DNA from: Streptantibioticus ferralitis
GTDB taxonomy: Bacteria > Actinomycetota > Actinomycetes > Streptomycetales > Streptomycetaceae
Length of the DNA: 64,000 nucleotides
Assembly (NCBI RefSeq): GCF_029223525.1
Contig: NZ_JARHTQ010000006.1
Location: forward strand, 62,001-126,000
Direction: 5' to 3'
Part shown: piece by piece, positions 13,552 through 29,159 of the stretch
Layout of the letters: every line of letters starts with the position of its first letter
Numbering within the stretch: position 1 is the first letter of the stretch
Notes under the pieces: generated by a model
The model's input: only the letters and a program-made list of their open reading frames with translations
Database searches by the model: none
Told to the model about the DNA's origin: nothing
Made by a program: the position numbers and the translations under genes

Positions 13552-14133
13552 TTGCCCGCCGGGCAGGATGAGGCCAGGCAGGAAGAAGGACTGCTGCACG
13601 GCGCGGGGCGGGCGACGACCTGGCGCACCGGCCCGTACCTGGAGACCACCGCGGTACGCGCCGCGATGCGACTGGCGGACAAGGAGCGGCTGTTGGGCTT
13701 CCTGTACGTCGGGCGCCCGGACCCCGAAGGGCGACGCGGGCCGCGACCGCCGTACGACCCCGCCGACCACCTCAGCGTGCTTCCCTACGCGGTGTTCGGC
13801 ATCCCCTCGGGCGTGCTGCTGGACCGCATGGATCTGCGGCGCACGATGGCACGCATCGACTACTTCCGGTGCGCCGTCATGCTGGCCTTCGCCCTGCTGG
13901 TCGCCTCCACCGCGGGACCGGTGCGTTCGCTGGACTGGACGGCGCGGATCGAGGCGCTGCCCACCCTGGTCGCCCTCGCGCACGGCCTGCGGCCGGGGCA
14001 GTTGCTGGAGACCACGACGGATCTGGTCGGCTCCCCGGGGTACGTCTATCCGGCCGCTGAGGATCCGCGGGACGCCGAGCGGGACTACCGGGCGCTGCGC
14101 GCGATGGAAGCGGACGGGCTCTACACCCGCTGA
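13552..14133 (+). pseudogene. Mosaic of gene fragments (nitroreductase / MFS / ATP-grasp ends)
   Basis: A 193-codon open frame that looks like three unrelated scraps in a row. Residues ~18-60 (TTWRTGPYLETTAVRAAM, then LLGFLYVGRPD) match the C-terminal end of nitroreductases. Residues ~72-117 (LPYAVFGIPSGVLLDRMDLR and a hydrophobic helix) look like one MFS helix pair. The rest (ALAHGLRPGQLL, SPGYVYPAAEDPRDAERDY) resembles the C-terminal lobe of ATP-grasp amino-acid ligases. No ribosome site and no complete domain are seen. It is probably a decayed relic rather than a working gene; the family assignments are by eye. Confidence 0.5.
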
Positions 14134-14206
14134 CCGGCCGTGCGGAGCACACCGTGGCGGTTCCCGCGCGGCGTCACACCAACTCGGCCACTGGTAGCGT
14201 GAGTTG

Positions 14207-14964: not shown

Positions 14965-16074
14965 TCATCGTGCGGCGGTTACCAGGTCCGGTGTCAGATC
15001 GTCCAGGGTCGCGGCGCCGACCAGGGCCATCGCGACTTCGGTCTCCCTGCGGAGCCCGCGGATGACGTCCCGTACTCCCCCCGCGCCGTCGACGGCCAGC
15101 CCCCAGATGTACGGGCGTCCGACGGCCACCGCGTCGGCGCCGAGGGCGAGCGCCTTGACCACGTCCGTTCCCCGGCGGACACCGCCGTCGATGATGACGG
15201 GCACCCGACCCGCCACCCGTTCGGCGATGGCGGGAAGGGCGGAGAGGGTCGAGGCGGCGGTGTCGAGGTTTCGGCCGCCGTGGTTGGAGATCCACACCCC
15301 GATACCGGCCTCGGCCGCCCGCTTCGCGTCCTCGGCCCGTAGGATGCCCTTGGCCAGCACCGGCAGTCCGGACACCTCGCCCAGCGCTGCCAGGTCGCTC
15401 CAGTCCACGGCGGGGTCGATGCGTGGATCGTGGATCGCGCCGTGCGCCGAAGTGCCCGGAGCGTGGGGGAGGTTGGCCGGACTGCCGTGCGAGGGCAGCG
15501 CGAAGCCGTTGCGCAGGTCCCGCTCCCGCAGTCCGGTGACCGGTGTGTCGACCGTGACGGCCAACGCCCGCGCGCTCGCCGCACGCGCCCTGCGCACCAG
15601 CTCCGCGGTGAGCCCGCGGTCCCGCTGCACATAGAGCTGGAACCACCAGGGGCCGCCCGCCGCAGCACCGATCTCCTCGACCGTCTGCGAGGAGAAGGTG
15701 CTCACTGTCATCAACGCACCGGCCTCGGCCGCACCGCGGGCGGTGGCGGCTTCGCCATCGGGGTGGAACAGGCGGTGCGAGGCAGCCGGGGCCAGCAGGA
15801 TCGGCGAGTCCAGGGCGGTGTCGAACACCGAGCAGCCGGTGTCCACACTTGCGTGGCCCGTCAACACACGGGGCAGCAGCGCCAGTTGCCGGTAGGTCTG
15901 CTGGTTCCACCGGACGGTGTGCTCGTCCGCCGCGCCGCCCTCCAGGTAGTCGAAGACCTCCGCCGGCAGGATCTCGCGTGCCGCCTCGCGGTAGTCGGCG
16001 AGGTTGACCAGCGCCGCACCGCTCGGGCCGTCCCCGGACGGCCGCGGGGTGCGTTCGACGGTGGTGTCACTCAC
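14965..16074 (-). CDS. FMN-dependent alpha-hydroxy acid oxidase
   Basis: A 369-aa enzyme that oxidises an L-2-hydroxy acid to the 2-keto acid. Motifs are FDYLEGGAADEHT, APAASHRLFHPDGE, FQLYVQRD with the active-site tyrosine, AVTVDTPVTGLRERD, and WISNHGGRNLD with the catalytic His and Arg. It resembles hydroxymandelate oxidase (HmO) of glycopeptide clusters and lactate oxidases. It is the last gene of the long leftward operon and overlaps the upstream ATP-grasp gene by 4 nt (GTGA). A likely job is making a keto acid for the operon's aminotransferase; this is inferred from context. Confidence 0.88.
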   Translation of the reverse strand: MSDTTVERTPRPSGDGPSGAALVNLADYREAAREILPAEVFDYLEGGAADEHTVRWNQQTYRQLALLPRVLTGHASVDTGCSVFDTALDSPILLAPAASHRLFHPDGEAATARGAAEAGALMTVSTFSSQTVEEIGAAAGGPWWFQLYVQRDRGLTAELVRRARAASARALAVTVDTPVTGLRERDLRNGFALPSHGSPANLPHAPGTSAHGAIHDPRIDPAVDWSDLAALGEVSGLPVLAKGILRAEDAKRAAEAGIGVWISNHGGRNLDTAASTLSALPAIAERVAGRVPVIIDGGVRRGTDVVKALALGADAVAVGRPYIWGLAVDGAGGVRDVIRGLRRETEVAMALVGAATLDDLTPDLVTAAR

Positions 16075-17327
16075 ACCGTCTCCTGGTCCACGGCGCGCAG
16101 CCGGACCTGGAACTCAAGCCGCGCGACGGCTTCGCGGGCGGCGGCCACCGCCTCGTCGGCCGTGTCCCCAAGGGCTCGCGCATAGGCGATGCGGGAGTCG
16201 GAGGACTCCAGCGGGCCGCAGTCGCCGCCGGGGCGGACCAGCAGCTCGACCTCGGTCACCCCCGCGGTACGCCTGGCCTCGTCGAGGCCGTCCACGTCCA
16301 CCAGTTCGCCCGCGGCGGGCGATGCCGCGAACCAGATCGCGGAGCTGCGGGCCGGGCGCCGGTCGGCGAGCGTCGCCTTGATCCCGGGGAGCACCCGATC
16401 CCCCACGGTCTGCCGCACCACGCACTCGGCGATGTCCACGCCGGTGGCGTCGAGCGCCAGGGCCGGAATCTCGTCGCCGCCCATCCGGACATGGGTCTCG
16501 ATCACCCGCGGGCCCGCCTCCCCGAGCACGATCTCGGTGTGGGTCGCACCGGTTTCCACACCGAGCGCGTCGAGCAACTGCTCCACGTAGGCCTGGACTT
16601 CCTTCTGCTGACCGGCCGTGAGCTCGGCGGGAGCCACATGGCCGAGTTCGACGAAGTTCACCGGATCGGAGAACTTCCGGGTGATCGCCACGACGCAGTG
16701 CTCGCCCTGCTCGGAGAACGCCTCCACGCTGAACTGCGGCCCCTCGTGGAACTGCTCGACCAGCACACCTGCGTCCGGCAGTCCTTCGAACCCGGCGTCC
16801 GCCCGCTCGAAGGCCGCGGTCAGCGCGCGTTCCTCGCGGACGACGGCGACTCCGGCGCTGCCCGCGCCGCGCACCGGCTTCACCACACACGGCAGTCCGT
16901 GTTCGGCCGCGAAGGCGCGCAGTTCGGCCACGTCGCTCACCAGGGCGGAAGCGGTGGCGTCCACCCCGGACTCCCGCAGCCTGGCCCGCATGGCCTGCTT
17001 GTCGTGCACCAGTGCCACCGTGCGGGGGGTGTGGGTGGGGATGCCCAGTGCCGCGCCGATCGCGGCGCAGCGGTCCTGGTCGCGCTCGCCGAAGGTGGCG
17101 ATCCTGGTGAACGGATGACGGGCGTGGACGACGGAGGCCAGCGCGATCCACTCGTCGTCGGGTGCGTCATGGCGCACCGCGATCACCCGGGTGTGCTCGG
17201 TCAACTCCCGTAGTCTGGCGACGTACTCCAGCCGGCAGATCACCGAGGTCTCGGTGCCCGGCAGGGCCCGGCGCACCCGGGTCGGCAGGTCGCGCCCGCT
17301 GCCTACGACGAGAACATGCTCACTCAT
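16071..17327 (-). CDS. ATP-grasp ligase, second copy
   Basis: A 418-aa carboxylate-amine ligase. The central ATP-grasp fold shows CVVKPVRGAGSAGVAVV (~150-165), EQFHEGPQFSVEAFS and RVIETHVRMGGDEIP, with the metal-binding E and N/R positions. The C-terminal lobe has VRPGGDCGPLESSDSRIAYA, the usual end of L-amino-acid ligases. Such enzymes join two amino acids through an acyl phosphate. It overlaps the MFS gene before it and the flavoenzyme gene after it by 4 nt each. With the ATP-grasp at 21616-22845 it gives the operon two peptide-bond-forming enzymes. Confidence 0.88.
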   Translation of the reverse strand: MSEHVLVVGSGRDLPTRVRRALPGTETSVICRLEYVARLRELTEHTRVIAVRHDAPDDEWIALASVVHARHPFTRIATFGERDQDRCAAIGAALGIPTHTPRTVALVHDKQAMRARLRESGVDATASALVSDVAELRAFAAEHGLPCVVKPVRGAGSAGVAVVREERALTAAFERADAGFEGLPDAGVLVEQFHEGPQFSVEAFSEQGEHCVVAITRKFSDPVNFVELGHVAPAELTAGQQKEVQAYVEQLLDALGVETGATHTEIVLGEAGPRVIETHVRMGGDEIPALALDATGVDIAECVVRQTVGDRVLPGIKATLADRRPARSSAIWFAASPAAGELVDVDGLDEARRTAGVTEVELLVRPGGDCGPLESSDSRIAYARALGDTADEAVAAAREAVARLEFQVRLRAVDQETV

Positions 17328-18637
17328 GGGGTCACCTCGGTGGTCGGGGAAACGGAGGGTAGGGACCGGGCACGGTCAGCCGTGTCCCCGGCCCGCTCGG
17401 CCAGGCTGCGGCGGGCCGCGGTACGGGAGACCAGCGCGGCGCAGCCGAAGGCTCCGGCCAGCACCGGCCAGGCGACCAGTCCGGTGGGGAGCAGCACGAC
17501 GACCAGCAAGGTGGGTCCGACCACCTTCTGACCGGTCAGGGAGAGGCTGAAGGCGCCCAGGTAGCGGGCGCGGGCGGCGGCGGGCGCCAACTCGGAGGAC
17601 AGTTCCCAGGCCGCCACGGAGTGCAGGTTCTCGGCGACGGAGAGCACCACCACCGCCATCAGCACCGCGGCCACGGCAAGCCCGGTCGGCGCCGCCTGGC
17701 CCAGGGCGAAGAACCCGCAGCAGGCCATCATCAGCACACCGGCCAGCACCAGCAGCCGGATCGCGGAGGCCGTGGTCTCGGCGAACCGCGCGACATAGAC
17801 CTGGAGCACCACCGTCAGCACGGTGTTGACGGCCATCAGCACCGGCACCCACGCGGAGGGCACCGAGGTGTGCTGGATCACCCACACCGGCAGCAGCACG
17901 ATCAGCACGGTGTCGTAGAGCGACAGCACGCCGCTGCCGATCGTGAAGAGCATGAACCACCGGTCACGGAACGGCGATCGGGTCACGGCGACCGGCTCCG
18001 CGCCGTCGGAGCCGGTGGACCGGCGCCGCACGGTGGTCCCGGTCCTGGCCAGCGCCAGCCGCACGGTGCCCGCGACCACCAGGAAGGAGACCCCGTTGAC
18101 GAGGAAGAGCGCGGTGAACGCACCCGGGCGGCTCGTCGCGAAGACCGCCCCCGCCAGCAGGAAGCCGACGGTCAGACCGACGTTGCGCACGGCCCGGATG
18201 GAGGCCATCGTCCGGGTCCGGTCGCTGCCGCCGATGGCGGCCGTCACCACGGCCTGCTGGATCGGTGTGCTGGACCGGTCCAAGGCGGTGAGCAGCACGG
18301 TCAGTACGAGGAAGTCGGGGTACCCGGTGACGAACGCGTACGCGCTGTAGCCCAGGCCGCGCAGCAGCAGGAGGGCCAGGTAGAACCCGCCCGTACCCCA
18401 CCGGTCGGCCAGCCGGCCCAGCGGTACCGGGGCGATCAGCGCCAGCGCCCCGGCGAGCGTGGTCGCGAACGCGACCTTGGTCGCGGGGATTGCGACCACG
18501 CCCACGAAGTACAGGGTGGACGACGCGAAGAACATGCCGGTGCCCAGCGAGTCGACGCAGGCGCCCAGGGCCAGCATCCGGCCCGCCGAGCCGTCCGGCA
18601 GCAGCAGCCCGCCGAGCCGCCGCAACCACCGGGTCAC
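17324..18637 (-). CDS. MFS transporter
   Basis: A 437-aa membrane protein with about 12 hydrophobic helices and a central basic loop (RTGTTVRRRSTGSDG). LGRLADRWGTGGFY is the A-type loop between helices 2 and 3. It starts with GTG, overlapping the upstream unknown by 4 nt, and ends overlapping the ATP-grasp gene by 4 nt. Being embedded in a biosynthetic operon, it most likely exports the product and gives self-resistance. Confidence 0.9.
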   Translation of the reverse strand: MTRWLRRLGGLLLPDGSAGRMLALGACVDSLGTGMFFASSTLYFVGVVAIPATKVAFATTLAGALALIAPVPLGRLADRWGTGGFYLALLLLRGLGYSAYAFVTGYPDFLVLTVLLTALDRSSTPIQQAVVTAAIGGSDRTRTMASIRAVRNVGLTVGFLLAGAVFATSRPGAFTALFLVNGVSFLVVAGTVRLALARTGTTVRRRSTGSDGAEPVAVTRSPFRDRWFMLFTIGSGVLSLYDTVLIVLLPVWVIQHTSVPSAWVPVLMAVNTVLTVVLQVYVARFAETTASAIRLLVLAGVLMMACCGFFALGQAAPTGLAVAAVLMAVVVLSVAENLHSVAAWELSSELAPAAARARYLGAFSLSLTGQKVVGPTLLVVVLLPTGLVAWPVLAGAFGCAALVSRTAARRSLAERAGDTADRARSLPSVSPTTEVTP

Positions 18638-19449
18638 GGCGAGCCCTTGTCACCGGCGGCCGGTGCCAGTGCGCGCACCAACTCCGTGGAACGCCGGATG
18701 TGGGTGGGCGTCGCGGCCTCCGGTGCCGGACCGCGCAGATGGTTCCAGGCGTACCGGCGGGCGGCGTTGACCAGCAGCTCGGCGGTGGCGGCCCGGGTGC
18801 CGTCCGCACTCTCCGGCGGGACGGCCTCGGCGTCGCGGGTCCGTTCGGCGGCCTGTGCGACCAGTGCGGCCCCGGTGAGCAGTCGGCCGACGCGGTCCAC
18901 CAGGACCCAACCGGCGGCCGCCACGACGCCCGGCTCGGCGCCCACCCACTCGTGGCGGGTGGTGGACAAGGTGAGCAGTGCCTGGTCCACCATGCGCCAG
19001 GCGGCCAGCAACCGGCCCTCGGGGATGGGGCCGAGCAGGTCCCTGGCTCTGAGGGTGGCCGCGTCGAAGTGCTCGGCCAAGGTGAGCAGCAGCAGCGCAT
19101 GAGCGGCCAGCCGGTGGGGCGTTGCCGGATCGGTGCCGCCGCCTTCGGCCGCCGACGCGGCGTCCTCGGCGAGGGTGTAGCTGACGCACCGCCGGGCGGC
19201 CACGTCGGCCTGGCCGTGCGAGGCGGTGGGCAGCGCGCGCCAGGCGCGGGCGGCCAGCAGGTCGACCGCGCGGTCGGCGGCTTCCTCCCGGCGGGAGACC
19301 GCCCAGGGGCTGGTGTCCTCCCGCAGTTCCAGCGCCGCGGCGGTCAGCCTGGCCACCGCGGCCTCCAGGGCCGCGAGGCTGCCGGGGGCTCCTTCCGCGC
19401 GGGCGTCGGCGGGTCGGATCCCGATCTCGGAGGTGATGCCTGAGCTCAC
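18634..19449 (-). CDS. Helical protein of unknown function in operon
   Basis: A 271-aa protein that I do not recognise. It is almost all alpha-helix and alanine/leucine rich (LAALEAAVARLTAAALELRE, HALLLLTLAEHFDAATLRAR), loosely recalling the helical C-domain of acyl-CoA dehydrogenases but with no flavin motif. The GTG at 19449 (VSSGITSEIG) overlaps the aminotransferase stop by 4 nt, and its own stop overlaps the MFS start. That coupling is the best evidence that it is real and acts in the pathway. Confidence 0.75.
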   Translation of the reverse strand: MSSGITSEIGIRPADARAEGAPGSLAALEAAVARLTAAALELREDTSPWAVSRREEAADRAVDLLAARAWRALPTASHGQADVAARRCVSYTLAEDAASAAEGGGTDPATPHRLAAHALLLLTLAEHFDAATLRARDLLGPIPEGRLLAAWRMVDQALLTLSTTRHEWVGAEPGVVAAAGWVLVDRVGRLLTGAALVAQAAERTRDAEAVPPESADGTRAATAELLVNAARRYAWNHLRGPAPEAATPTHIRRSTELVRALAPAAGDKGSP

Positions 19450-20366
19450 ACGTACTCCAGCCAGTGGCGGTAGGTGGGGTTGCGTCCGTGGACCACGTCG
19501 GTGAAGGCCTCGCGCAGCTGCTTGGTGATCGGTCCGCAGCCGCCTGCCGTCACCGCGCGGTCGTCCACCGAAGCGACCGGTACCAGCTCGGTGGCGGTGC
19601 CGGTCAGGAACGCCTCGTCCGCCACGTAGAGTTCGCCGCGGGTCAGGCTGCGCTCCTCGACCGCCAGACCCTGGTCCCGGGCGAGGGTGATGATGGACTG
19701 CCGGGTGATGCCGGGCAGGATGTTGTCGCTGACCGGCGGGGTGACCAGCACTCCGTCGCGGATCGCGAAGATGTTGGCGGCGGAGGCCTCGGCCACGTGC
19801 CCGGTCGGGGTGAGCATCAGTGCGTCGTCGTAGCCCGCGCGGATGGCGGCGACCTTGGCGAGCGCCGAGTTGACGTAGGCGCCGGTGGCTTTGGCAAGCG
19901 GCGGGACCGAGTGGATGCCGTTGCGCTGCCAGCTGCTGACAGCCAGCCGGCAGCCCTCCCGTTCCGCCTTCTCCCCCAGGTACGACCCCCAGGGCCAGGC
20001 GGCGATGGCCACCCGGGCGCTGTCCAACTGGGGGGCGACGCCCATCGTGCCGTATCCGAGGTAGACGATCGGGCGCAGATAGGCGGAGTCCAGACCGACG
20101 CGGCGCAGCAACTCCACCGAGGCGTCGATGAGTTGGTCCACGGTCCAGCCGGGGTCCATCAGGTAGACCCGGGCCGAGTCGTGCAGCCGCTCCAGGTGTT
20201 CCCGCAGCCGGAACACCGCGGGGCCGTCGGCCGTCGGATAAGCGCGGATGCCCTCGTAGACACCCCACCCGTAGTGCAGGCTCGGGGTCAGCACATGGAC
20301 CTGTGCCTGGTCCCAGGGAACGAACTCGCCGTCCATCCAGATGGTGCCGGTGGGTTCCAGTTTCAT
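19446..20366 (-). CDS. Fold-type IV aminotransferase (IlvE-like)
   Basis: A 306-aa PLP enzyme. HYGWGVYEGIRAY (~31-43) and ATGAYVNSALAK with Lys159 as PLP-binding lysine are textbook branched-chain aminotransferase motifs; EASAANIFAI and NILPGITRQSI follow in place. Length is normal. Located inside the natural-product operon with 4-nt overlaps on both sides, it probably transaminates a pathway keto acid, perhaps that made by the FMN oxidase, rather than serving general leucine/valine metabolism. Donor and chirality are not deducible. Confidence 0.9.
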   Translation of the reverse strand: MKLEPTGTIWMDGEFVPWDQAQVHVLTPSLHYGWGVYEGIRAYPTADGPAVFRLREHLERLHDSARVYLMDPGWTVDQLIDASVELLRRVGLDSAYLRPIVYLGYGTMGVAPQLDSARVAIAAWPWGSYLGEKAEREGCRLAVSSWQRNGIHSVPPLAKATGAYVNSALAKVAAIRAGYDDALMLTPTGHVAEASAANIFAIRDGVLVTPPVSDNILPGITRQSIITLARDQGLAVEERSLTRGELYVADEAFLTGTATELVPVASVDDRAVTAGGCGPITKQLREAFTDVVHGRNPTYRHWLEYV

Positions 20367-21619
20367 CGGTCAGCTCCCGGTGAGGGGGTACGGGACGGGA
20401 CAGCGGTGGCGGGTGCGCCGACCCGCTCCAACCGGCGCTCGATGCTCTGCGACTGCAGGGACAGCACCTCGCGGTAGGTGTCGGCGTCCGGGCCGTGGAA
20501 GGCGAACCAGCCCCAGCGCGGCTGGAGTTCGCAGCCCCGGGCGAACTTGGCCTCGTAGGCGGCCATTCCGTAGTGGATGCGGCGGATGCCGCCCTCCACC
20601 GCCCAGCGGATGGCCTCGTGGTAGGTGAGTGCCAGATAGCACCCCTGGGCCTCCGGAGCGAATCCCGCGGTACGGGCGAAGAGCGCCTCGCCGGTGCGCA
20701 GGCACAGCACGAAGCCCAGCAGTCGTCCGTCCCGTTCGGCGCCCAGCACCACACAGCTCTCGCCGAGCTCCTCCCGGATGCCGTCGAAGTCCCGGCGCAC
20801 CCGGTGATCGCCCCCGGGCAGGCCGTACTTGGCCCGGTGGGCGACCTGGAGGGCCACCACCTCGTCGTCGATCGCCTCCGGTCCTGACCGGACGACGGTG
20901 CGGAAGCCGGACTGTTCGTAGTCCCGCAGTTCTTTGCGCAGACGGGTGCGACGGCGGCTGCTGAGCCCGGCCAGGTACGCCTCCCAGCTGGACTCGGCCA
21001 GGTGGTACACGCCCTCGGCGCCCAGCAGGGCGGCGGCGTATCCGGCACCGGCGGCGGTCCGGTCGACCTCCGCCGCCGCGGGCTCGCCGACGTACAGCAA
21101 CGCGCTGCTGCGGCAGTCCAGTTCGGCGGCGGCGTCGGTGAGCAGGCCGGGCAGCGCGGCCATGACGGCGAGGCGCTGGGCGGGGGTGCGGTGCGGGGGG
21201 TGGGCCACACCGTGGTGCGTGCCGAACGTGGCGAGCGTCAGCGAGGGGTAGTGGTCCGCGCGGTCCGCGGGCAGTGCGCCGGTGAGCTTGCTCCAGCGTT
21301 CCTGGTCCGCCGGTTCGAGCAGTTCTGGTTCGGCCATCGCACCGGCGGTGCCGGCCAGCCGCGGCGGATCGTAGAACAGCAGGCCACCGGCCTTACGGGT
21401 GAGCAGCAACGGGGCGAGGGCGACGACCCGGTCGTTCTCGTGGATCTCCAGGTACCGCACCTCGTGCAGGTCGGTCCGTTCGGTGAACCGGCACCAGCGG
21501 GCGTCCTCCCAGATGACGTCGGGGCCGGCGAGGCCGGAGAAGTCCTCCGCGGTCGGCCGGGCGGTGGGGGGAAGGACTTGCGCGGTGTAGCCGGTGGCGT
21601 GCGTGCCGGCGTCGCTCAT
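20363..21619 (-). CDS. FemAB-like GNAT acyltransferase
   Basis: A 418-aa protein of the duplicated-GNAT type (PF13480/DUF482-like). Features are GLSSRRRTRLRKELRDYEQS, the acyl-CoA or aminoacyl binding stretch ESCVVLGAERDGRLLGFVLC, and the C-terminal RRIHYGMAAYEAKFARG. FemAB relatives use aminoacyl-tRNA as donor and form peptide bonds, so it may add a residue to the product. The ATG at 21619 overlaps the preceding ATP-grasp stop (ATGA), with GGAGGTG just upstream. Confidence 0.8.
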   Translation of the reverse strand: MSDAGTHATGYTAQVLPPTARPTAEDFSGLAGPDVIWEDARWCRFTERTDLHEVRYLEIHENDRVVALAPLLLTRKAGGLLFYDPPRLAGTAGAMAEPELLEPADQERWSKLTGALPADRADHYPSLTLATFGTHHGVAHPPHRTPAQRLAVMAALPGLLTDAAAELDCRSSALLYVGEPAAAEVDRTAAGAGYAAALLGAEGVYHLAESSWEAYLAGLSSRRRTRLRKELRDYEQSGFRTVVRSGPEAIDDEVVALQVAHRAKYGLPGGDHRVRRDFDGIREELGESCVVLGAERDGRLLGFVLCLRTGEALFARTAGFAPEAQGCYLALTYHEAIRWAVEGGIRRIHYGMAAYEAKFARGCELQPRWGWFAFHGPDADTYREVLSLQSQSIERRLERVGAPATAVPSRTPSPGADR

Positions 21620-22845
21620 CGGACACCTCCGGCGACTGCCTCCAACTCCCAGCCGAAGCCGGCCGACACCGCGGCGGTGGTGTCCCGCAGCTTCGCCCGC
21701 AACGCCGCGCCGTCCTGGTCGGTGACGACCCAACTGGCCAGGAAGTCGGCCGACTTGCGCTGTTCGTAGCGCTGCCCGCTCCAGTCGTCCCCGACATGGG
21801 TGTTGAGGGTGAAGTCGTGTGCGCCGACCGGTGCCTCTGGCAGCCGCACCACCCGGCCACGCTGCGGTGGGATACCGCAGAAGGCCGCGTGCGGCGCGGC
21901 TTCGGCCCGCTCCCGTACGGAGCGCAGCGCGACCGGCAACCCGCACTCCACCCGGGCCCACATCTGGCGCGGATCGATCCCCAGGACGTGCTGGAGCATC
22001 GTCGGTATGGGACCACCGCCGATTCGGGCGGCCACCTCGCACAGCACGATCTCGCCGCTCGCGGTGACGAAGAACTCGGCGTGCGCGCACACCGTCGGCG
22101 GGGACGGCAGCGCCTCGATCAGCCGCCAGGTCTCCGCCACCAGCCGGGCGCCCAGCGGATCGGTCAACGCCAGGGTGGTGGAGCCGAAGGGGGTGTCGGT
22201 CCAGTGCGCCAGACAGCCGTCGCTGGTGTACCGGGAGGGCACCGCCACCACGGGAACACCGGCGACCCGGAAGGCGTCCACATGGTGCAGCGCGCCGTCC
22301 ACGAACTCCTCGACCTCGTAGGGAACGGCCGTGACGGCGTCCGCGAGCCCGGTCGCCTGGGAGGGATGGTCGAGCAGGTGCACTCCCGTGGAGCCGGAGC
22401 CCCCGCGCGGTTTGGCCACCACCCGTCCGGGATGCCCGGCCATGAAGACGACGATGTCCGCGACCTCGCCAACCGGCGCGAAGTCGGGCACGGACAGCCC
22501 CGCGCCGCGTGCGTACCGCTTCATCAGCACCTTGTCGCGGAAGGCCGCGGCGGCCGCGGTGTCCAGGCCGTCGAGCCCCAACTCGCCGCGCAGTACGGCG
22601 GCTCGTTCGACGTCGACCTCGGCGAGCGCCAGGACCGAGGTGGGGTGGTGGCGGCGGGCGAGATCCCTGGCGGCCGCCAACACCGCTTCGTCATCGGTGT
22701 AGTCGGCCACGGTCACCGTTTCGGCGAAGCCGTCGCCGATGTCCGTGCCGTCCGCCGTGACCGCCAGCAGCCGACCGGCCTGCTCGGCCAGCCATGCGCT
22801 GAAGGGCAGTCCCGCGTTCCGCGGGCTGATCAGTATCAGGATCAC
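21616..22845 (-). CDS. ATP-grasp ligase, first copy
   Basis: A 409-aa ATP-grasp enzyme, only distantly similar to the one at 16071-17327. Motifs are DKVLMKRYARGAGLSVPDF, RVVAKPRGGSGSTGVHLL (ATP loop), EEFVDGALHHVDAF and EIVLCEVAARIGGGPIP with the metal ligands. The type activates a carboxylate as acyl phosphate for attack by an amine. GTG start, overlapping the Ldh-family gene by 4 nt. The C-terminal lobe (KSADFLASWVVTDQDG) differs from the other copy, suggesting a different acceptor. Confidence 0.88.
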   Translation of the reverse strand: MILILISPRNAGLPFSAWLAEQAGRLLAVTADGTDIGDGFAETVTVADYTDDEAVLAAARDLARRHHPTSVLALAEVDVERAAVLRGELGLDGLDTAAAAAFRDKVLMKRYARGAGLSVPDFAPVGEVADIVVFMAGHPGRVVAKPRGGSGSTGVHLLDHPSQATGLADAVTAVPYEVEEFVDGALHHVDAFRVAGVPVVAVPSRYTSDGCLAHWTDTPFGSTTLALTDPLGARLVAETWRLIEALPSPPTVCAHAEFFVTASGEIVLCEVAARIGGGPIPTMLQHVLGIDPRQMWARVECGLPVALRSVRERAEAAPHAAFCGIPPQRGRVVRLPEAPVGAHDFTLNTHVGDDWSGQRYEQRKSADFLASWVVTDQDGAALRAKLRDTTAAVSAGFGWELEAVAGGVR

Positions 22846-23948
22846 GTTCGTGCCTCCCTGGCCGTAGGACCGTCGATGCCCGTGCGGCGGGCCAGTTCGG
22901 CCAGCACGTCGGCGGTGCGGGCGTCCAGCGGAACACCATGGGCGCGCCGTTCGCGTTCATGGGCCCGCTGCGGGTCGCCGGGGGCGAGGACGGCCTGGTC
23001 CCCGGCGGGCGTGGCCGAGCGGACGGTGCCCAGCAGGTCGGCCAGGCCCGCGCCGAACCGCTCCTGTCCGCAGAACGCGCCGGGGTCCAGGGCCATCACG
23101 AGATGCCCCACCTGGCGGCCGCGCCCTGCCGTACCTTCGCCCACCTGGGAGAGCTGCCAGTCCGGCGGCGACCCGGTCAGCACCGCGCCGAGCAGGGTGA
23201 CCGCCATGGCGAGTCCCTGTCCCTTGTATCCGCCGAGTGGTGAGAGGGCGTACGCCTGGTCCGGTTCCTCGGTCGGCAGGCCGTCGGCGTCGGTCGTCCA
23301 GCCGCGGTCCAGTCGGCGGCCCTCGGCCCGGCGCTGCTTGATCTCGCCGAAGCAGACCTGGCTGGTGGCCATGTCCAGGGCGAACTCCTGGTCCCCGCCG
23401 CCCGCCGCCACGCTGATCGGGTTGGTGCCGAACAGCGGCTCGACCCCGTTGAACGGCGCGACCCGGGAGGCCGCCGAGGTGAGCGCGATCCCGACCAGCC
23501 CCTGCCGGGCCAGTTGACGGGTGTAGACGGACGCGGCACCGAAGTGGTTGGAGTCGCGTACGCTCACGGCGGCCACGCCGAACCGGCCGGCGCGCTCGGC
23601 GGCCAGTCGGGCCGCGGCCAGTCCGGCGAGCACACCGAGCGAGCCGTCGGCGTCCAGCAGCAGCCCTGCCCCGCGGTCCCGGGCGATGGTGACCCGCGCC
23701 GCCGCGTTGGCGACGCCGGTGGCGAGTTCGTCCAGGTACTGCGGGAGCAACCGCAGACCGTGGGTGTCGATGCCGCGCAGTGAGGTGTCCACCAGCGCGT
23801 CGGCCACCTGGCGGGCCTCCGCGTCGTCGACCCCCGCCTCGGCGAGCGCCACACGGGCGAGTCGGCGCGCCGACTCCTCCGCGATCACGGGCAGTTCGCC
23901 GGGCTGCGCCCGGTGCTGAACCGGAGGGGCTTGTGTTCCACTGGTCAT
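22842..23948 (-). CDS. Ldh2-family oxidoreductase (malate/lactate dehydrogenase-like)
   Basis: A 368-aa NAD(P)-dependent enzyme of PF02615. LRGIDTHGLRLLPQYLDEL, VSVRDSNHFGAASVYTRQLA and FGTNPISVAAG are the fingerprint; the His of DTHG and of NHFG are conserved. Members reduce 2-keto acids to 2-hydroxy acids or cyclic imines (delta1-piperideine-2-carboxylate) to pipecolate-like amino acids. Inside this operon either fits: a partner for the 2-hydroxy acid oxidase, or an imine reductase acting on a lysine-derived ring. Confidence 0.88.
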   Translation of the reverse strand: MTSGTQAPPVQHRAQPGELPVIAEESARRLARVALAEAGVDDAEARQVADALVDTSLRGIDTHGLRLLPQYLDELATGVANAAARVTIARDRGAGLLLDADGSLGVLAGLAAARLAAERAGRFGVAAVSVRDSNHFGAASVYTRQLARQGLVGIALTSAASRVAPFNGVEPLFGTNPISVAAGGGDQEFALDMATSQVCFGEIKQRRAEGRRLDRGWTTDADGLPTEEPDQAYALSPLGGYKGQGLAMAVTLLGAVLTGSPPDWQLSQVGEGTAGRGRQVGHLVMALDPGAFCGQERFGAGLADLLGTVRSATPAGDQAVLAPGDPQRAHERERRAHGVPLDARTADVLAELARRTGIDGPTAREART

Positions 23949-25435
23949 CGCGGGCTCCAGTACATGAACCGATGCGGTCCGATCGCCGGCATGTCGAACT
24001 CCTCGCCCAGGACCTGGAAACCGTGTCGTCGATAGAAATCAGCCGCGGAGCTACGGGCGTTGCACCAGACGGCACCCGCGCCGGCCAGCGCGGCATGGGT
24101 GAGCGCGGTCCGCAGCAGTGCGGCACCCGCGCCGGTGCCGCGTGCCGTCTCCAGGGTGGCCATGCCGCGCAGCCGCCAGCCGTGGCCCGGCAGCAGCCCC
24201 GGAACACTACGGTCCACGGGTGGATCCTCGGGGTAGAGCGAGGCGGCGCCGACCGGGCTGCCCGCGGCCAGTGCGGCGAAGTGCCGGACGCCGGGGTTGT
24301 CGTCCTCGGGGTAGGCGCAGGACGCGGCGGGTTGTCCGGGGCGCAGTACCTGGTGGCGGATCGGTCGGACGTCGTCGACCGGCACCGCCCGCACCCGCCA
24401 GCCGTGGGCCTCGGGATCGGGAAGATAGCCGGAGCCCGGCCGGTCGGGCAGTTGGACCCGGCCGACGCTGTCGAGGGTCAGCCCCTGGCCGGAGTCCACC
24501 GCGAGCAGGTCGACCACGTCGACGTCGAGGTGGTCGGCCAGGCCGCCGAGGTGCGCGGTGGCCGAGACACCCGCCGCGGACTCGAACATGCAGCCCAGCA
24601 TGGTGAGCAGACCGCGCTCCCTGGCGCTGTGCAGCATCGCCAGGGCGGGGGTGATGCCGCCCGCCTTCATCGGTTTGACGTTGATGCCGTGGAACGCCTC
24701 GGTGCAGGGGTCCAAGTCGGCGGGCGAGGTGATGGACTCGTCGGCGAGCACCGGCAGCGGACTGAGCCGCTTGAGCGTCCGCGCGTCCGCCCAGGCCTCC
24801 CGGGGGAAGGGCTGCTCGACCAGTCGCACACCGAGTTGCCGCATGTGCTCCAGCGCGGGCAGTGTCCTGGACAGCTCCCAGCCGCAGTTGCCGTCGACGT
24901 AGAACGGTGCGTCCGTGTGCTCGCGCAGTTCCTTGAGGATGGTCAGGTCCGCCGGGTCGGCGAGCTTGACCTTGTAGGCGTGCCAGCCCGGTCGCTCGTC
25001 CAGCTTGCGGGCCATCGCGTCGGGCTCGTCCAGCCCGATGCTGTAGCTGGAGCGCAGGCCGTGCGGCCGGTCCAGGCCGAGCGACCGCCACAGCGGCACG
25101 CCGAGCAGCCGGGCCCGCAGGTCGTGCACCGCGGTGTCGAGTGCGGCGAGCACGAAGGGGGATTCGGGAAGTTCGGCGACGAGGGTCCACCACACCGCCG
25201 AGGGGTCGTCCGGGCTGAGTCGGCCCAGCAGCGGGGCGATCCGGCGCAGGTCCGCGTGCATGCGGTCCAGGTCGGAGTTGTAGCGGTGGGTCATGAACGC
25301 CGACGCTTCGCCGAAGCCGCTGGTGCCGTCCTGCTCCAGCTCCACCACCACGGCGGGCTGCACCGGTATCGCCTCTCGGGCGGAGCGCCACACATGCCGC
25401 TGGGTGAGGCTGAGCTCGTGGACGGTGGCCCTCAT
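23945..25435 (-). CDS. Dipeptide epimerase-like enolase fused to GNAT
   Basis: A 496-aa two-domain protein. Residues 1-~340 are an enolase-superfamily barrel close to L-Ala-D/L-Glu epimerases. The Lys pair of YKVKL (155, 157), metal ligands in DGN (181), EQP (207) and ADES (232), and the opposite lysines of NVKPMKAGG (254, 257) are all present, so it should be active. Residues ~345-496 are a GNAT domain with RGMATLETARGTGAGAALLR (acetyl-CoA loop) and a YRRHGFQ end. Fusion of an epimerase to an N-acyltransferase is unusual and suggests epimerising and capping one amino acid or dipeptide. Confidence 0.88.
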   Translation of the reverse strand: MRATVHELSLTQRHVWRSAREAIPVQPAVVVELEQDGTSGFGEASAFMTHRYNSDLDRMHADLRRIAPLLGRLSPDDPSAVWWTLVAELPESPFVLAALDTAVHDLRARLLGVPLWRSLGLDRPHGLRSSYSIGLDEPDAMARKLDERPGWHAYKVKLADPADLTILKELREHTDAPFYVDGNCGWELSRTLPALEHMRQLGVRLVEQPFPREAWADARTLKRLSPLPVLADESITSPADLDPCTEAFHGINVKPMKAGGITPALAMLHSARERGLLTMLGCMFESAAGVSATAHLGGLADHLDVDVVDLLAVDSGQGLTLDSVGRVQLPDRPGSGYLPDPEAHGWRVRAVPVDDVRPIRHQVLRPGQPAASCAYPEDDNPGVRHFAALAAGSPVGAASLYPEDPPVDRSVPGLLPGHGWRLRGMATLETARGTGAGAALLRTALTHAALAGAGAVWCNARSSAADFYRRHGFQVLGEEFDMPAIGPHRFMYWSPR

Positions 25436-26742
25436 CGGGCGCCCGCCGACACCAACTCGGCTTCGCGGGAGAGGTGTTGGCCGGGGAACCAGGAGCCGAG
25501 GGCCGGGCGCAGGTCGTCGAACCATTCGGCGGTGGGATCGTAGGCGGCGAAGAACTGCCGTCCGACCAGTTCCGGGTCGCGGGCCTGGAGCAGCCGCAGC
25601 GCGAAGACGCGCTCCCCGGCGATCGTGCTGACGCCGTCGATCAGCACCTTGCCGGGAGCCGCGGACATCACCGGACCACGGGCGGTGCGGGCGAGCCCGG
25701 ACACCCCGCGGATGGCGTCGGTGTAGATCTGGAGCGCCTTGCCGAGCGGCACGCCGAAGTAACTGCGGGCACCGGTGTCGCGCTCGACGAACATGTAGTA
25801 CGGCAACACCCCCAGCTCGACCATGAGTTGCCACATCCGCGACCACACCGCGGCCTCGTCGTTCACATGCGCGACCAGCGGTGCCTGCGCGCGGATGACG
25901 GCTCCGGTGGCCCGGATACGGGCGATGGCCTCGCGCACGACCGGTGTCTCCAGCTCCCGGGGATGGGAGAAGTGCGCCATCACCGCGACATGGCGGCCCG
26001 CGGCGACACACCGCTCGAACAGGCGCAGCAGGTCGTCGGCGTCCGCGTCGGTGGTGAACCTGGCCGGCCAGTAGGAGAGGGCCTTGGTGCCGAACCGGAG
26101 TGTGCGGACTGTCTCCATGGCGGGGTCCAGCAGCGGTTCGATCCAGCGGCCCAGCACCTGGGTCTTCATGATCATCGGGTCGCCGCCGGTGAACAGGACG
26201 TCGGATGCCTCGGGGTGGTGGGCCAGGTAGGCCGTGAGCTGTGCGGGGTCGCGCAGCGCCTGGCGCAGTTCGGCGATGCCGACGAACTGCGCCCAGCGGA
26301 AGCAGTATCCGCAGTAGGAGTGGCAGGTCTGTCCCTGCGAGGGGAAGACCAGCACCGTCTCGGCGTACTTGTGCTGGAGTCCGTCGAGGCGGTGGCCGTC
26401 CAGCGTGGGGACGTTGGCCTCCAACTGGTCGCCCGGGTGCGGGTTGAGCAGTGCCTGGGCGTCGGCCGCGGCCTTGCGCAGCACCTCGCGCGGGGCATCG
26501 GTGTCGTGCAGGGCCGCGATGCCGTCGAAGACCTCCGGCGGCAGCATGTCGCGGTGCGGGAAGGTGAGCCGGAAGATCGCGTCGTCAGGGGCTGCCGACC
26601 AGTCGATGAGCTGGTCCGCGACGTACTCGTTCACCTTGAAGGGCAGTACGCAGGACACGACCCTGAGGTCACGCAGGTACTCGTCGGGCATCCCGCGGTC
26701 GCGGGCAAGGGCGGCCAGGCGTTCGTGGGAGAAGGTCTTCAT
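25432..26742 (-). CDS. KamA-family radical SAM enzyme
   Basis: A 436-aa relative of lysine 2,3-aminomutase. The [4Fe-4S] motif CHSYCGYC (Cys140, 144, 147) is intact, followed by VLFTGGDPMIMKT (SAM-binding) and RFGTKALSYWP. Where PLP-dependent aminomutases carry PGGGGK, this protein reads AAPGKVLID, so the glycine loop is missing though a lysine remains. It may be a PLP-less or altered aminomutase. I took the ATG at 26742; the frame extends to 26796. It overlaps the epimerase-GNAT gene by 4 nt and presumably makes a beta-amino acid or another rearranged residue. Confidence 0.87.
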   Translation of the reverse strand: MKTFSHERLAALARDRGMPDEYLRDLRVVSCVLPFKVNEYVADQLIDWSAAPDDAIFRLTFPHRDMLPPEVFDGIAALHDTDAPREVLRKAAADAQALLNPHPGDQLEANVPTLDGHRLDGLQHKYAETVLVFPSQGQTCHSYCGYCFRWAQFVGIAELRQALRDPAQLTAYLAHHPEASDVLFTGGDPMIMKTQVLGRWIEPLLDPAMETVRTLRFGTKALSYWPARFTTDADADDLLRLFERCVAAGRHVAVMAHFSHPRELETPVVREAIARIRATGAVIRAQAPLVAHVNDEAAVWSRMWQLMVELGVLPYYMFVERDTGARSYFGVPLGKALQIYTDAIRGVSGLARTARGPVMSAAPGKVLIDGVSTIAGERVFALRLLQARDPELVGRQFFAAYDPTAEWFDDLRPALGSWFPGQHLSREAELVSAGAR

Positions 26743-26820
26743 CCGAAGTCGCCTCAGATCGTTGATCACGGTCGTCGGTGACGGACACACCGCCACGTCG
26801 TGACCTTGGTGGGACGGTGC

Positions 26821-27855
26821 TCAGGCGGAGATGTGCGACCTGGACCAGTCGAAGTCCACCTGGTCGGTCACACCCATCTGTTCGACCAGCTTGTGCAGGC
26901 CGGTGTAGTCGCGGACCAGCCGCTTGCGTCCCGACTCGGCCTGGCAGTCGGCCAGCATCTCGTGTCCGCCGGCGACACCGGCCAGGTCCATGATCCGGTG
27001 CCAGGTGGTGTAGTCGTTGGTGACGAAGGCGTCGAGGCCCTCCATCAGCATGTCCAGGAAGTACCGGCGCCGGGTCTGGTCCAGCTTCTCGTACACCACC
27101 TCCGCGAGGACGGCCGAGATCGAGGCGTGGCAGTACTCGTCGCGGTTGTGCAGCTTGGCCGTTGTGCTGTTGATCGACTGGATCTCGGTGTCGTCCGCGA
27201 GCAGGTCAAGGTAGGCGTTGATGGAGATCTCGGAGACCGTGGCGAACGCCAGCGTGGTCAACGACCGCTGCCAGCGTTCCCCTGCGGCGTCCCGCAGTTG
27301 CTGATGCATACGGGCCGTGTGTGACATCGGCAGGTCGGTGTCCAGCATGGCCCGGCCGCGGCGTCGACGGGTCACCGCGCTGGCGTTGAGGTGCATCAGG
27401 GTGTGGTATTGCTCGTCGACCATCGCCTGTGCCAGGGACAGGTTGAGGGCCTCACCGCTCAGGGCGGGATACTCCCCCTCCATGACCAGTGCGAAGGCGG
27501 GGTTGGCCACCTTCTGCTCGGCCATCACGGTGTGCCGGTTGTACGCGATCCACGCCCAGCTGAGCACTTCGGAGCGCTTCTCCGGGTCGAGCGCCTGGTA
27601 CGTCGGGTGGTCGTGGAAAGGCAGGATGCCCTCGGGGTAGTCGGGGCGCTCCAGCTCGAACAGCTCGTCCAGGTCGGGCTCGTCCCGCTTGACCGTGGCG
27701 CGGCGGTGCCAGTTGCCCACCAGGCGCCGGATGACGGCGTGCTCTACCGGGTCGTCCGGGTCGTGGCGCGGCACACCGGGCGGAAACGTTGTTTCCGAAG
27801 AGTCCTCGGGCGAGATCTCGCTGGGGTTGTCGGTGGTCACAAGGTCACCGTTCAT
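26821..27855 (-). CDS. AurF-type diiron oxygenase
   Basis: A 344-aa member of the p-aminobenzoate N-oxygenase family (PF11583), which oxidises amines to hydroxylamine, nitroso or nitro groups. Diiron ligands are visible in order: Glu of AYNRHTVMAEQKV, Glu and His of VDEQYHTLMH, Glu of VSEISINAYLDLL, and His, Glu, His of HNRDEYCHASI. Family length is normal. It sits between the 2-oxoglutarate oxygenase gene (45 bp) and the radical SAM gene (78 bp). It suggests an N-O or N-N containing product, but some family members do other oxidations. Confidence 0.88.
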   Translation of the reverse strand: MNGDLVTTDNPSEISPEDSSETTFPPGVPRHDPDDPVEHAVIRRLVGNWHRRATVKRDEPDLDELFELERPDYPEGILPFHDHPTYQALDPEKRSEVLSWAWIAYNRHTVMAEQKVANPAFALVMEGEYPALSGEALNLSLAQAMVDEQYHTLMHLNASAVTRRRRGRAMLDTDLPMSHTARMHQQLRDAAGERWQRSLTTLAFATVSEISINAYLDLLADDTEIQSINSTTAKLHNRDEYCHASISAVLAEVVYEKLDQTRRRYFLDMLMEGLDAFVTNDYTTWHRIMDLAGVAGGHEMLADCQAESGRKRLVRDYTGLHKLVEQMGVTDQVDFDWSRSHISA

Positions 27856-27900
27856 GGCGTTCCTTCACGGGGGAGCTGGGTGGTCGGCGGTGCTCGTGGC

Positions 27901-28629
27901 TCAGCGGCCGTCTGCCAGCCAGTAGCGGGTGAGATGGCGCCGTACGTCGGTGTAGGACGAGCGGGCGTGCAGCATCCGCTGGTTGTCCCAGACCAGGACG
28001 GAGTCCTCGGGTATGAGGACCGACACCTTGTGCTCGCGGAAGAACGCCTCGGCCTGATGGGCCAATTCGATGCCCGCAGCGCCCAACGGCAGCTCTTCGG
28101 GCCGTACTTCGGCGTCCAACGACGGGTCGTAGTGGCCCGCGGTGAGCAGGTTGTAGCTGAACCTGACGATCTCCCGGCCCGCTGCGGTGCGTTCCACGGC
28201 GGGACGGCGTACGCCGGAGCTGCCGGTCCCGCCGGTGTTGTGGCCCACCCAGTCGACGGTCCGCTCGTACACCAGACGGCGGTCGGCCTCGCCCAGTTGT
28301 GCCACGAACGCGCGGGCGTCGGCGAGTTCGGTGTGGCCGCTGCCGCACTTCGCCTGGACCCGGCAGTGCAGGGCGAGGTAGCGCGGCGGCGGGTTCCAGC
28401 CTGGGGCCTCGGTGTGCACCAGGATGGTGTTGGTGCTCTTGGAGTACCTGCGTCCCTCGAAGCCCGGGGCGGCCTTCACCTGGTGGCGCAGTGCTCCGTC
28501 GTACTGCGGGATGGGCTCGCCGAGTTGCCGTAGCGCCTCGGCTGCCTGGTCGTCGGTGCTGATGCCGTCAAGGAGGGTGTAGCCCTGCTCGACGAGTTCC
28601 TTGATGTGCACGTCAACGGTGGTGCTCAT
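27901..28629 (-). CDS. TauD/TfdA-type Fe(II)/2-oxoglutarate oxygenase
   Basis: A 242-aa oxygenase. The metal triad is HTE (His72, Glu74) and the distal His221 in QRMLHARSSYTD; the 2-oxoglutarate arginine is in RRHLTRYWL (231 or 235). Glu instead of Asp in the HxD/E motif is found in the clavaminate-synthase branch. It is shorter than TauD (~280), with a trimmed N-terminus. ATG at 28629. A likely role is hydroxylation of a free or peptide-bound amino acid. A CGTGG x5 tandem repeat lies 39-63 bp upstream. Confidence 0.88.
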   Translation of the reverse strand: MSTTVDVHIKELVEQGYTLLDGISTDDQAAEALRQLGEPIPQYDGALRHQVKAAPGFEGRRYSKSTNTILVHTEAPGWNPPPRYLALHCRVQAKCGSGHTELADARAFVAQLGEADRRLVYERTVDWVGHNTGGTGSSGVRRPAVERTAAGREIVRFSYNLLTAGHYDPSLDAEVRPEELPLGAAGIELAHQAEAFFREHKVSVLIPEDSVLVWDNQRMLHARSSYTDVRRHLTRYWLADGR

Positions 28630-28667
28630 GGCGATACTCCGTTCTCCTCGCGCGGTTCCGGCGTCGC

Positions 28668-28692
28668 CGTGGCGTGGCGTGGCGTGGCGTGG
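28668..28692 (+). repeat. Tandem repeat CGTGG x5
   Basis: Five exact head-to-tail copies of CGTGG in the gap between the small peptide gene and the oxygenase gene, where a leader or secondary promoter would be. It could vary in copy number by slippage. Confidence 0.85.
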
Positions 28693-28781
28693 ACGGCCGG
28701 GCCGGAAGGGGGGTCGTGGAACGCGCCGCCCGCAGCGGGTGGCGCAGCCGGACAGGAGTTGCCGTACCGGGCCGCGGTGTC

Positions 28782-28985
28782 CTAGCCCCAGCCGGTGTCC
28801 CTGACCGTCACCTGGTGGGAGGCCGCTGACGGTGCCGTCGCCCCCCAGCCGGTGTCGGCGAGGGATCGGGATGAGCCGTGCCGCGCGGACAGGCCGGAGC
28901 CGGCCGGGCCGCCTGCCGTCTGTAAGCCGCCGACGACCACGGCCAGGAGGGGGAGTGCCGAGAGCCACAGCTTGGTGCTGTTCAT
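28782..28985 (-). CDS. Small secreted-looking peptide with repeated DTGWG
   Basis: A 67-aa protein. Residues 1-25 look like a signal peptide (MNSTKLWLSALPLLAVVVGG). The rest is small, polar and Gly/Ser/Ala rich, and contains the motif DTGWG twice: ADTGWGA at 43-49 and RDTGWG as the very C-terminus (62-67). There are no cysteines. It is first in the direction of the biosynthetic operon and divergent from the LuxR gene. A GGAGA lies 12 nt before the ATG; a longer frame back to 29102 is less likely. It may be a pheromone, RiPP precursor or secreted factor; none is proven. Confidence 0.65.
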   Translation of the reverse strand: MNSTKLWLSALPLLAVVVGGLQTAGGPAGSGLSARHGSSRSLADTGWGATAPSAASHQVTVRDTGWG

Positions 28986-29116: not shown

Positions 29117-29141
29117 CAGGATGGTGAAGTGCAGCATCCTG
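29117..29141. promoter_or_regulatory. Candidate regulator-binding dyad
   Basis: Inverted repeat CAGGAT-N13-ATCCTG in the 174-bp divergent gap, 19-43 bp before the LuxR gene's start codon. A flanking CTTCA...TGAAG adds symmetry. Position fits a site for the LuxR-type protein controlling itself and the peptide operon; inferred. Confidence 0.4.
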
Positions 29142-29159
29142 AACAGGGGACAGAAGGGT

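Follow-up and report, generated by a model that had tools for sequence, protein, structure and literature searches.

A conserved gene cluster of Streptantibioticus ferralitis as a candidate for nitropeptin-type peptide biosynthesis

Introduction

Gene clusters that build small peptides with ATP-grasp enzymes and without a nonribosomal peptide synthetase (NRPS) are already known as a class. Those of bacilysin and dapdiamide combine an L-amino acid ligase (BacD and DdaF, respectively) with an MFS exporter and a non-proteinogenic amino acid. The p-aminobenzoate N-oxygenase AurF makes a nitro group, and only a small number of biosynthetic routes are known to lead to aliphatic C-nitro amino acids. 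Here we analyse a 64,000-nucleotide stretch of the Streptantibioticus ferralitis genome (assembly GCF_029223525.1, contig NZ_JARHTQ010000006.1, positions 62,001 to 126,000; hereafter the window), in which twelve genes at 14965-28629 form a cluster that we tentatively assign to a small, nitropeptin-like peptide containing a nitro-amino acid and built without an NRPS.

Nitropeptin is a nitro dipeptide antibiotic of Streptomyces xanthochromogenes (Ohba et al. 1987, J. Antibiot. 40:709, as cited in the accessible part of PMC5138215). A second point of reference is incednine, for which the accessible part of PMC11284099 assigns the conversion of L-Glu to β-Glu to the radical S-adenosylmethionine (SAM) enzyme IdnL4 on the basis of gene disruption, followed by decarboxylation by IdnL3 and loading by IdnL1.

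Results and Discussion

The twelve genes lie on the minus strand in the order of the first twelve lines below; the last line is a divergent gene that is probably a regulator of the cluster.

27901..28629, minus: TauD, TauD/TfdA-type Fe(II)/2-oxoglutarate oxygenase, proposed C2 hydroxylase (Pfam TauD over cut-off)
26821..27855, minus: AurF, AurF-type diiron N-oxygenase, proposed to convert amine to nitro (Pfam AurF, 185 bits, cut-off 29.6)
25432..26796, alternative start 26742, minus: KamA-like radical SAM/pyridoxal phosphate (PLP) aminomutase, proposed L-glutamate 2,3-aminomutase (TIGR00238, PDB 2a5h)
23945..25435, minus: MLE, MR_MLE dipeptide-epimerase-like domain with fused GNAT (Pfam MR_MLE_N/C, Acetyltransf_1)
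22842..23948, minus: Ldh2, Ldh2-type NAD(P) 2-hydroxyacid dehydrogenase, proposed to convert 2-hydroxy to 2-oxo (Pfam Ldh_2, 322 bits)
21616..22845, minus: ATP-grasp2, second ATP-grasp ligase (NCBIfam ATP-grasp models under cut-off; PDB 4wd3)
20363..21619, minus: FemAB-like, FemX-fold transferase, probably aminoacyl-tRNA dependent (Pfam FemAB_like; structure model)
19446..20366, minus: IlvE, IlvE-type class IV aminotransferase, proposed to re-aminate C2 (TIGR01122, 392 bits, cut-off 246)
18634..19449, minus: unk271, accessory helical protein similar to an acyl-CoA dehydrogenase C-terminal half (structure model; no Pfam match)
17324..18637, minus: MFS exporter (Pfam MFS_1)
16071..17327, minus: ATP-grasp1, ATP-grasp ligase of the L-amino acid ligase (LAL) type (Pfam ATP-grasp_4, LAL_C2; PDB 3vot, 30vh)
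14965..16074, minus: FMN_dh, FMN-dependent 2-hydroxyacid (lactate/glycolate) oxidase family (Pfam FMN_dh; PDB lactate/glycolate oxidases)
29121..30197, plus: LuxR-type regulator (Pfam GerE)

Pfam and NCBIfam models place all enzyme types named in a preliminary description of this DNA on the minus strand, and its picture of an NRPS-free small-peptide cluster is supported by the gene content. Its count of about thirteen genes becomes twelve leftward ones with the divergent LuxR-type gene besides, and the epimerase that it named is present but fused to a GNAT domain. The leftward run from 14965 also stands, but its proposed extent to 28985 does not: TauD most likely starts at 28629, given a GGAG upstream and most aligned orthologs beginning nearby. 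The twelve genes fit a single operon, since nine of the 11 junctions are 4-base overlaps and the other two are gaps of only 24 and 45 bases, the first widening to 78 bases if translation of KamA begins at 26742. The LuxR-type gene has a counterpart of 85% identity at the same place in the S. rubrisoli locus (L006).

In the pathway that we propose for this gene set, KamA would shift the amino group of glutamate to C3, where AurF would oxidise the amine to nitro; TauD would hydroxylate the vacated C2, Ldh2 would turn the 2-hydroxy into the 2-oxo acid, and IlvE would re-aminate C2 to give a β-nitro-α-amino acid of the 3-nitroglutamate type. Drawn in this way, the relay uses each of the five enzymes once. 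This residue would next be joined to ordinary amino acids by ATP-grasp1, ATP-grasp2 and the FemX-fold enzyme; the dipeptide epimerase would set a stereocentre, the GNAT would probably protect or cap the product and the MFS protein would export it. Sequences and models show the gene content and its conservation, the metal-binding and catalytic motifs, which are intact, the folds and the fact that the five relay enzymes form a unit of their own; we infer glutamate as the substrate, with fair support, as well as the order and regiochemistry of the oxidations, the nitro group rather than a hydroxylamine, the peptide sequence and the identity with nitropeptin. As a whole, we give slightly less than an even chance to the reading that this NRPS-free cluster makes a small nitropeptin-type peptide with a nitro-amino acid.

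The gene set recurs well beyond S. ferralitis. The AurF protein was scanned against one genome per species and the best 80 of 123 loci were taken. TauD, AurF, MLE, Ldh2, ATP-grasp2, FemAB, IlvE and ATP-grasp1 follow one another in identical order in 16 of these 80 AurF loci of other species, which argues that the gene set is not a product of chance; the 16 span Streptomyces, Streptantibioticus, Kutzneria, Nocardiopsis, Rhodococcus and mycobacteria. KamA stands between AurF and MLE in 15 of them, while the cluster of Nocardiopsis alkaliphila is without KamA and a KamA of the same clade is encoded elsewhere in its genome (616 bits). An MFS match was obtained at 15 loci and an unk271 match at 12. 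FMN_dh comes next after ATP-grasp1 in all six Streptomycetaceae cluster loci, with identities to the window protein of 80% in the genome of L006, 70% in the S. xanthochromogenes locus (L007) and 42-45% in the remaining four. At the ten cluster loci of Rhodococcus, mycobacteria, Kutzneria and Nocardiopsis, ATP-grasp1 is not followed by FMN_dh, although in one of these the contig ends about 1 kb beyond. Within Streptomycetaceae the cluster is rare in terms of its FemAB profile, which exceeds 600 bits in 5 of 394 genomes, the window's genome counted, and two of the other FemAB-positive genomes (L194, L195), the ones examined, contain the whole gene set. Seven further AurF loci (L027, L028, L029, L032, L037, L039, L051; 55-60% identity) have AMP-binding and/or ATP-grasp relatives nearby and make up a different AurF cluster family.

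The cluster is also present in S. xanthochromogenes JCM 4612 (L007), where TauD, AurF and KamA are 77-88% and the other shared genes 66-82% identical to those of the window. AurF matches in this genome number five and are spread over four places, two of the five lying side by side. Pfam profiles also give 12 ATP-grasp_4 and six LAL_C2 matches, and only those of the cluster lie within 10 kb of any AurF. Nitropeptin, compared here by compound class and producer species rather than by structure, shares with the predicted product of the window cluster the nitro group and the dipeptide character, and a genome of its species carries the cluster; we regard the link predicted from these genes as a strong lead rather than proof. 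No published gene cluster for nitropeptin, and no paper tying cluster and compound together, was found in the literature searched, which leaves out most subscription journals; nor was a published cluster joining AurF, ATP-grasp and aminomutase recognised there, as judged by titles and the beginnings of abstracts. The novelty that the preliminary description suggested for the enzyme set has to be qualified: nitropeptin is a known compound that agrees with the gene content, and the species cited as its producer has the cluster.

A narrower form of the nitropeptin-type reading, compatible with it, takes the product to be exactly nitropeptin. The species match, the nitro group in a dipeptide, the presence of the cluster in L007 and the finding that no other AurF of that genome has a neighbouring ATP-grasp_4 or LAL_C2 match at 10 kb or less speak for this identity. 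However, L007 differs from the window in giving no unk271 match and in having its MFS gene outside the leftward run, and the Rhodococcus and Kutzneria clusters may make other congeners. We consider exact identity possible, with the balance tilted clearly towards doubt.

The nitro group itself depends on the AurF-type enzyme, which keeps all seven diiron ligands of AurF, making an N-O function in the product likely, as had been suggested at the outset; a β-amino intermediate, which bears on the β-residue of the preliminary description, is likewise likely. The enzyme shares the fold family and the seven diiron ligands with the p-aminobenzoate N-oxygenase AurF but belongs to another subgroup, and its proposed substrate is aliphatic. 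Its nearest PDB entry is the uncharacterised 5hyg (387 bits), ahead of AurF (3chh, 205 bits), which leaves room for another end point: the oxidation could stop before nitro, and a β-hydroxylamine or nitroso intermediate would close onto the carboxylate or stay a hydroxamate, giving an N-O heterocycle or a hydroxamate peptide. Diiron N-oxygenases act stepwise and can halt at nitroso or hydroxylamine, and the downstream oxidising enzymes of the cluster could act on such an intermediate. Against an early stop, AurF, the nearest characterised relative found, makes a nitro group. A nitroso product is described for the diiron N-oxygenase AzoC in the accessible part of PMC6783550, whereas the cited producer species makes a nitro dipeptide according to that of PMC5138215. 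On balance we regard an end point short of nitro as unlikely.

For the nitropeptin-type reading, it matters whether the five enzymes of the relay belong together. TauD, KamA, AurF, Ldh2 and IlvE stand alone in five out of five Streptomyces loci (L053, L057, L059, L071, L073), which include S. alboflavus (L057) and S. flavofungini. In L057, where the families were scanned, the unit includes an EamA transporter gene, placed between KamA and AurF, and is preceded by an AraC-type gene; the EamA and AraC-type relatives in the other four loci are 75-86% and 78-93% identical, respectively, to those of L057. No ATP-grasp or FemAB relatives were found in the five loci at E 1e-4; in two of them (L057, L073) the gene of an AMP-binding enzyme stands some 5 kb away. 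Standing alone with a transporter, the five enzymes probably make one free, exported amino acid. Their catalytic residues have been kept: the TauD metal triad H72-x-E74 ... H221 (HTE...H) is invariant in 16 of 16 aligned proteins, and Ldh2 keeps THG.R and Asp192, which we take to be catalytic, in 11 of 11 (alignments comprised 16 of 22 rows for TauD, 11 of 22 for Ldh2, 13 of 17 for FemAB and 11 of 13 for unk271, the last without L019 and L020). The best NCBIfam model for Ldh2 is sulfolactate dehydrogenase, at 207 bits against a cut-off of 500. The IlvE family works with the glutamate/2-oxoglutarate pair, and because the same genome encodes a separate type II IlvE (at G000:C22), the cluster's IlvE is probably dedicated to the pathway.

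The history of the genes is mosaic. Trees were built from the window and 15 of 17 loci, leaving out L014 (no KamA) and L011 (3.4-kb contig), and were rooted by choice on Kutzneria. For the front genes TauD, AurF and KamA, the window, L006 and L007 group with Streptomyces loci L008-L010 and L012 (100/100), whereas for the rear genes MLE, Ldh2, ATP-grasp2, FemAB and IlvE they group with Rhodococcus and mycobacteria (100/100); from this conflict, a recombination within the block, close to the KamA/MLE border, is probable. The peptide-cluster KamAs fall in two places in a tree of 37 KamA rows, which has some long branches and leaves out relatives such as L135, L137, L138, L140, L143, L144 and L146-L150, those of Rhodococcus, mycobacteria and Kutzneria next to the five-gene unit. 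The two front-gene types may differ in product.

This conflict (100/100), which gives Ldh2 and IlvE a history separate from KamA and AurF, and the score of IlvE above the branched-chain aminotransferase cut-off could mean that the cluster prepares two building blocks, an N-oxidised β-amino acid from KamA and AurF and a separate hydroxylated or keto-derived branched-chain amino acid from TauD, Ldh2 and IlvE. TauD, however, is placed with the front genes and is closer to them in its identity pattern, against such a split, and the five-enzyme unit with one transporter and without ATP-grasp or FemAB is easier to read as making one product; we judge two separate blocks to be decidedly unlikely. As a wider reading we propose that a portable five-enzyme relay would put nitro on the β-carbon of an α-amino acid, either alone to give a free nitro-amino acid (Streptomyces, with EamA) or in the peptide clusters of Streptomyces, Kutzneria, Rhodococcus and mycobacteria, and that the aminomutase-ligase-exporter kit is re-used in hydrazine-type clusters, a tentative generalisation that we hold at somewhat below even chance.

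The entry of the relay is set by the substrate of the KamA-like enzyme, which belongs to the KamA superfamily by its alignment with 2a5h (E 2e-24), its CxxxCxxC motif (Cys140/144/147, counted from the 26742 start as are the other residues of the window KamA) and an invariant Lys365, presumably the PLP lysine; it scores 119 bits with TIGR00238 (cut-off 199) and has no Pfam match. The side-chain amine of lysine is bound in lysine 2,3-aminomutase by residues that we take to be Asp293 and Asp330 (C. subterminale numbering). In an alignment of 17 of 21 rows from peptide clusters and five-gene units, an invariant Arg321 falls on Asp293 in all 17, and 11 of 11 strong members of the clade, counting that of the window, likewise have Arg at position 293; the Asp330 column is Val in the window protein. 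For comparison, position 293 is Lys in L141, a near-cut-off glutamate 2,3-aminomutase (637.7 of 650 bits), and Asp in L142, an above-cut-off lysine mutase (787 bits). The window protein does not reach the lysine model TIGR03820 (87.6 of 525.4 bits) or the glutamate model TIGR04368 (83.3 of 650 bits), and has Arg instead of Lys at 293; it may still have the same function as the TIGR04368 glutamate mutases, from which it would then be a separate lineage.

Clade context points to glutamate. The KamA clade is sparse, being found in 11 of 396 Actinomycetota genomes before the score drops from 555 to 198 bits. The clade members of L156 and L157 have as neighbours a PLP enzyme of the Aminotran_1_2 family and an AMP ligase, which are 64% and 62% identical, respectively, between the two loci; L157 additionally has a VinK-like acyltransferase and a modular polyketide synthase (PKS) there. 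Because these neighbours resemble incednine-like macrolactam starter cassettes, we consider glutamate the probable substrate. The likeness to the incednine cassette (IdnL4, IdnL3, IdnL1; accessible part of PMC11284099), in which IdnL4 was compared by description rather than by sequence, lies in the radical SAM step from Glu to β-Glu and in the occurrence of relatives of the window KamA in similar cassettes; the difference is that β-Glu is decarboxylated and loaded on a PKS for incednine, whereas in the window cluster it would be N-oxidised and re-aminated. Leucine or isoleucine, which IlvE might suggest, were set aside given Arg at 293 and the macrolactam cassettes. Nine neighbours of clade KamA genes outside these clusters (in L152, L153, L154, L158 and L160) reveal no clear pathway. 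One of the nine is a class IV aminotransferase in L154 (6807-10492), two genes away from the clade KamA, with no AurF or TauD relatives nearby. The clade KamA of L155 is accompanied by an NRPS with two A domains and a thioesterase, by a TauD oxygenase and by a carbamoyltransferase, possibly another β-amino-acid pathway.

Negamycin derives from lysine, and the preliminary description had drawn a negamycin analogy with lysine as precursor, in which KamA would give β-lysine, TauD would hydroxylate and AurF would form the N-O bond; KamA superfamily membership and the sole PDB match, 2a5h, itself a lysine 2,3-aminomutase, fit this route, but Arg for Asp293, Val in the Asp330 column, a TIGR03820 model not approached and a clade context of glutamate speak against lysine as the KamA substrate and hence against the negamycin analogy, and we take the route to be highly improbable.

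Peptide assembly in the proposed nitropeptin-type pathway would fall to three enzymes. ATP-grasp1 combines the ATP-grasp fold with the LAL C-terminal domain (LAL_C2, 68 bits against a cut-off of 29) and resembles the dapdiamide and bacilysin ligases in matching the DdaF and BacD models, but far under their equivalog cut-offs (57.9 of 840 and 52.5 of 850 bits, respectively). ATP-grasp2 aligns with the PDB L-amino acid ligase 4wd3 (E 2.7e-10) with no Pfam match at E 0.001, and is predicted to be of a diverged L-amino acid ligase type. The structure model of the FemAB-like protein (predicted local distance difference test score, pLDDT, 88.5) superimposes on FemX (7z5y; Z 20.9, root-mean-square deviation 3.9, 305 aligned) and on the aminoacyl-tRNA peptide synthase Sba18 (Z 19.8), while GNATs reach at most 15.2 and 2hqy, a protein of unknown function (Z 16.0), falls between the tRNA-dependent enzymes and the GNATs; judged by the model, the FemX-fold enzyme probably uses aminoacyl-tRNA. 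Two FemAB relatives lie near an arginyl-tRNA synthetase gene in L192 (2302-15024), which also holds an ATP-grasp1 relative (51%), two MFS genes and a gene for a 754-residue protein without Pfam match. Compared with the bacilysin and dapdiamide clusters, the warhead genes are others, and the window adds the FemX-fold enzyme, the epimerase-GNAT and a second ligase.

In the MR_MLE domain we read KVK, KPMKAGG, VDGN/VEQP/LADES and DVD, which correspond to what we take to be the dipeptide epimerase motifs, namely KxK and K bases, a D/E/D metal site and a DxD binding the free amino end. The domain aligns with PDB entries 3iji and 3rit and the GNAT part with 2bsw; the DgcA and L-Ala-D/L-Glu epimerase NCBIfam models both match the MR_MLE domain under cut-off. 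The Kutzneria epimerase is without GNAT domain, and in both genomes a separate gene follows ATP-grasp1, identified as GNAT in the one scanned (L118), as would be expected if the epimerase and GNAT activities work together. The model of unk271 (pLDDT 84) gave no Foldseek match at E 0.001 or better (best 0.10), and its likeness to acyl-CoA dehydrogenases rests on a second structure aligner, with Z 17.3 for 6ijc and 17.0 for FadE5 (6kpt) against about 8 for the first rows outside the family. The modelled protein resembles the C-terminal half of a large acyl-CoA dehydrogenase without the flavin half and may be a structural remnant or else a partner protein. IlvE and unk271 are merged by the gene caller into one reading frame in the mycobacterial loci L018, L022 and L023; in L018 this frame is read through without stop.

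Several points weigh against a nitropeptin-type product. The link to nitropeptin was drawn from the name of the species and the class of the compound; the strain sequenced is not known to be the reported producer, and further LAL-type ligases are encoded in its genome at a distance from any AurF. A dipeptide would need fewer enzymes than two ATP-grasps plus a FemX enzyme, and the score of IlvE as a branched-chain aminotransferase could mean a branched-chain product. The 4-aminobenzoate N-oxygenase model NF045603 is not reached (231.9 of 620 bits), and the ability of diiron N-oxygenases to halt early, noted above, applies here as well. With the cluster being mosaic, the amino acid made by the front genes may differ from group to group. 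As for glutamate, none of the NCBIfam KamA models, the glutamate one included, is reached by the window protein, and Arg at 293 is not specific to acidic substrates, as more distant relatives of KamA (L132-L138), whose substrates are unknown, have it too. IdnL4, moreover, was inactive in vitro (accessible part of PMC11284099).

The clusters of L182 (NZ_CP118316.1, Rhodococcus plasmid pDK3, 1-11266) and L193 (G518) appear to form a sister family in which the nitrogen function is another. Both are like the window in KamA (56 and 61%, respectively) and MFS (40 and 45%); L182 has an ATP-grasp1 relative (48%), and L193 a FemAB relative (39%) and another ATP-grasp. They differ in that N-hydroxylase, MetRS-like and saccharopine-dehydrogenase-like genes, which we take to be of the hydrazine-forming kind, replace AurF, TauD, Ldh2 and IlvE. 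The aminomutase-ligase-exporter tool kit appears to be re-used in these hydrazine-type clusters.

Beyond the FMN_dh end of the cluster, a small, mosaic-looking open reading frame on the plus strand (13552-14133) contains an MFS-like stretch, recognised by eye, and a sub-threshold LAL_C2 stretch. Its neighbours are a gene resembling PhzF (14204-14935) and one for an A domain (11620-13305), and the S. rubrisoli cluster (L106) is also flanked by PhzF and A-domain relatives. These three genes are possibly the remains of another cluster.

Conclusion

The nitro-amino-acid relay is possibly new. If the proposal is true, the relay would be an enzymatic way to β-nitro-α-amino acids, and genes would be proposed for an antibiotic known since 1987. 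The KamA clade is defined here, and glutamate as its likely substrate is directly testable. A function would also be given to a conserved cluster that reaches from Streptomyces to mycobacteria and of which no description was found in the literature searched.

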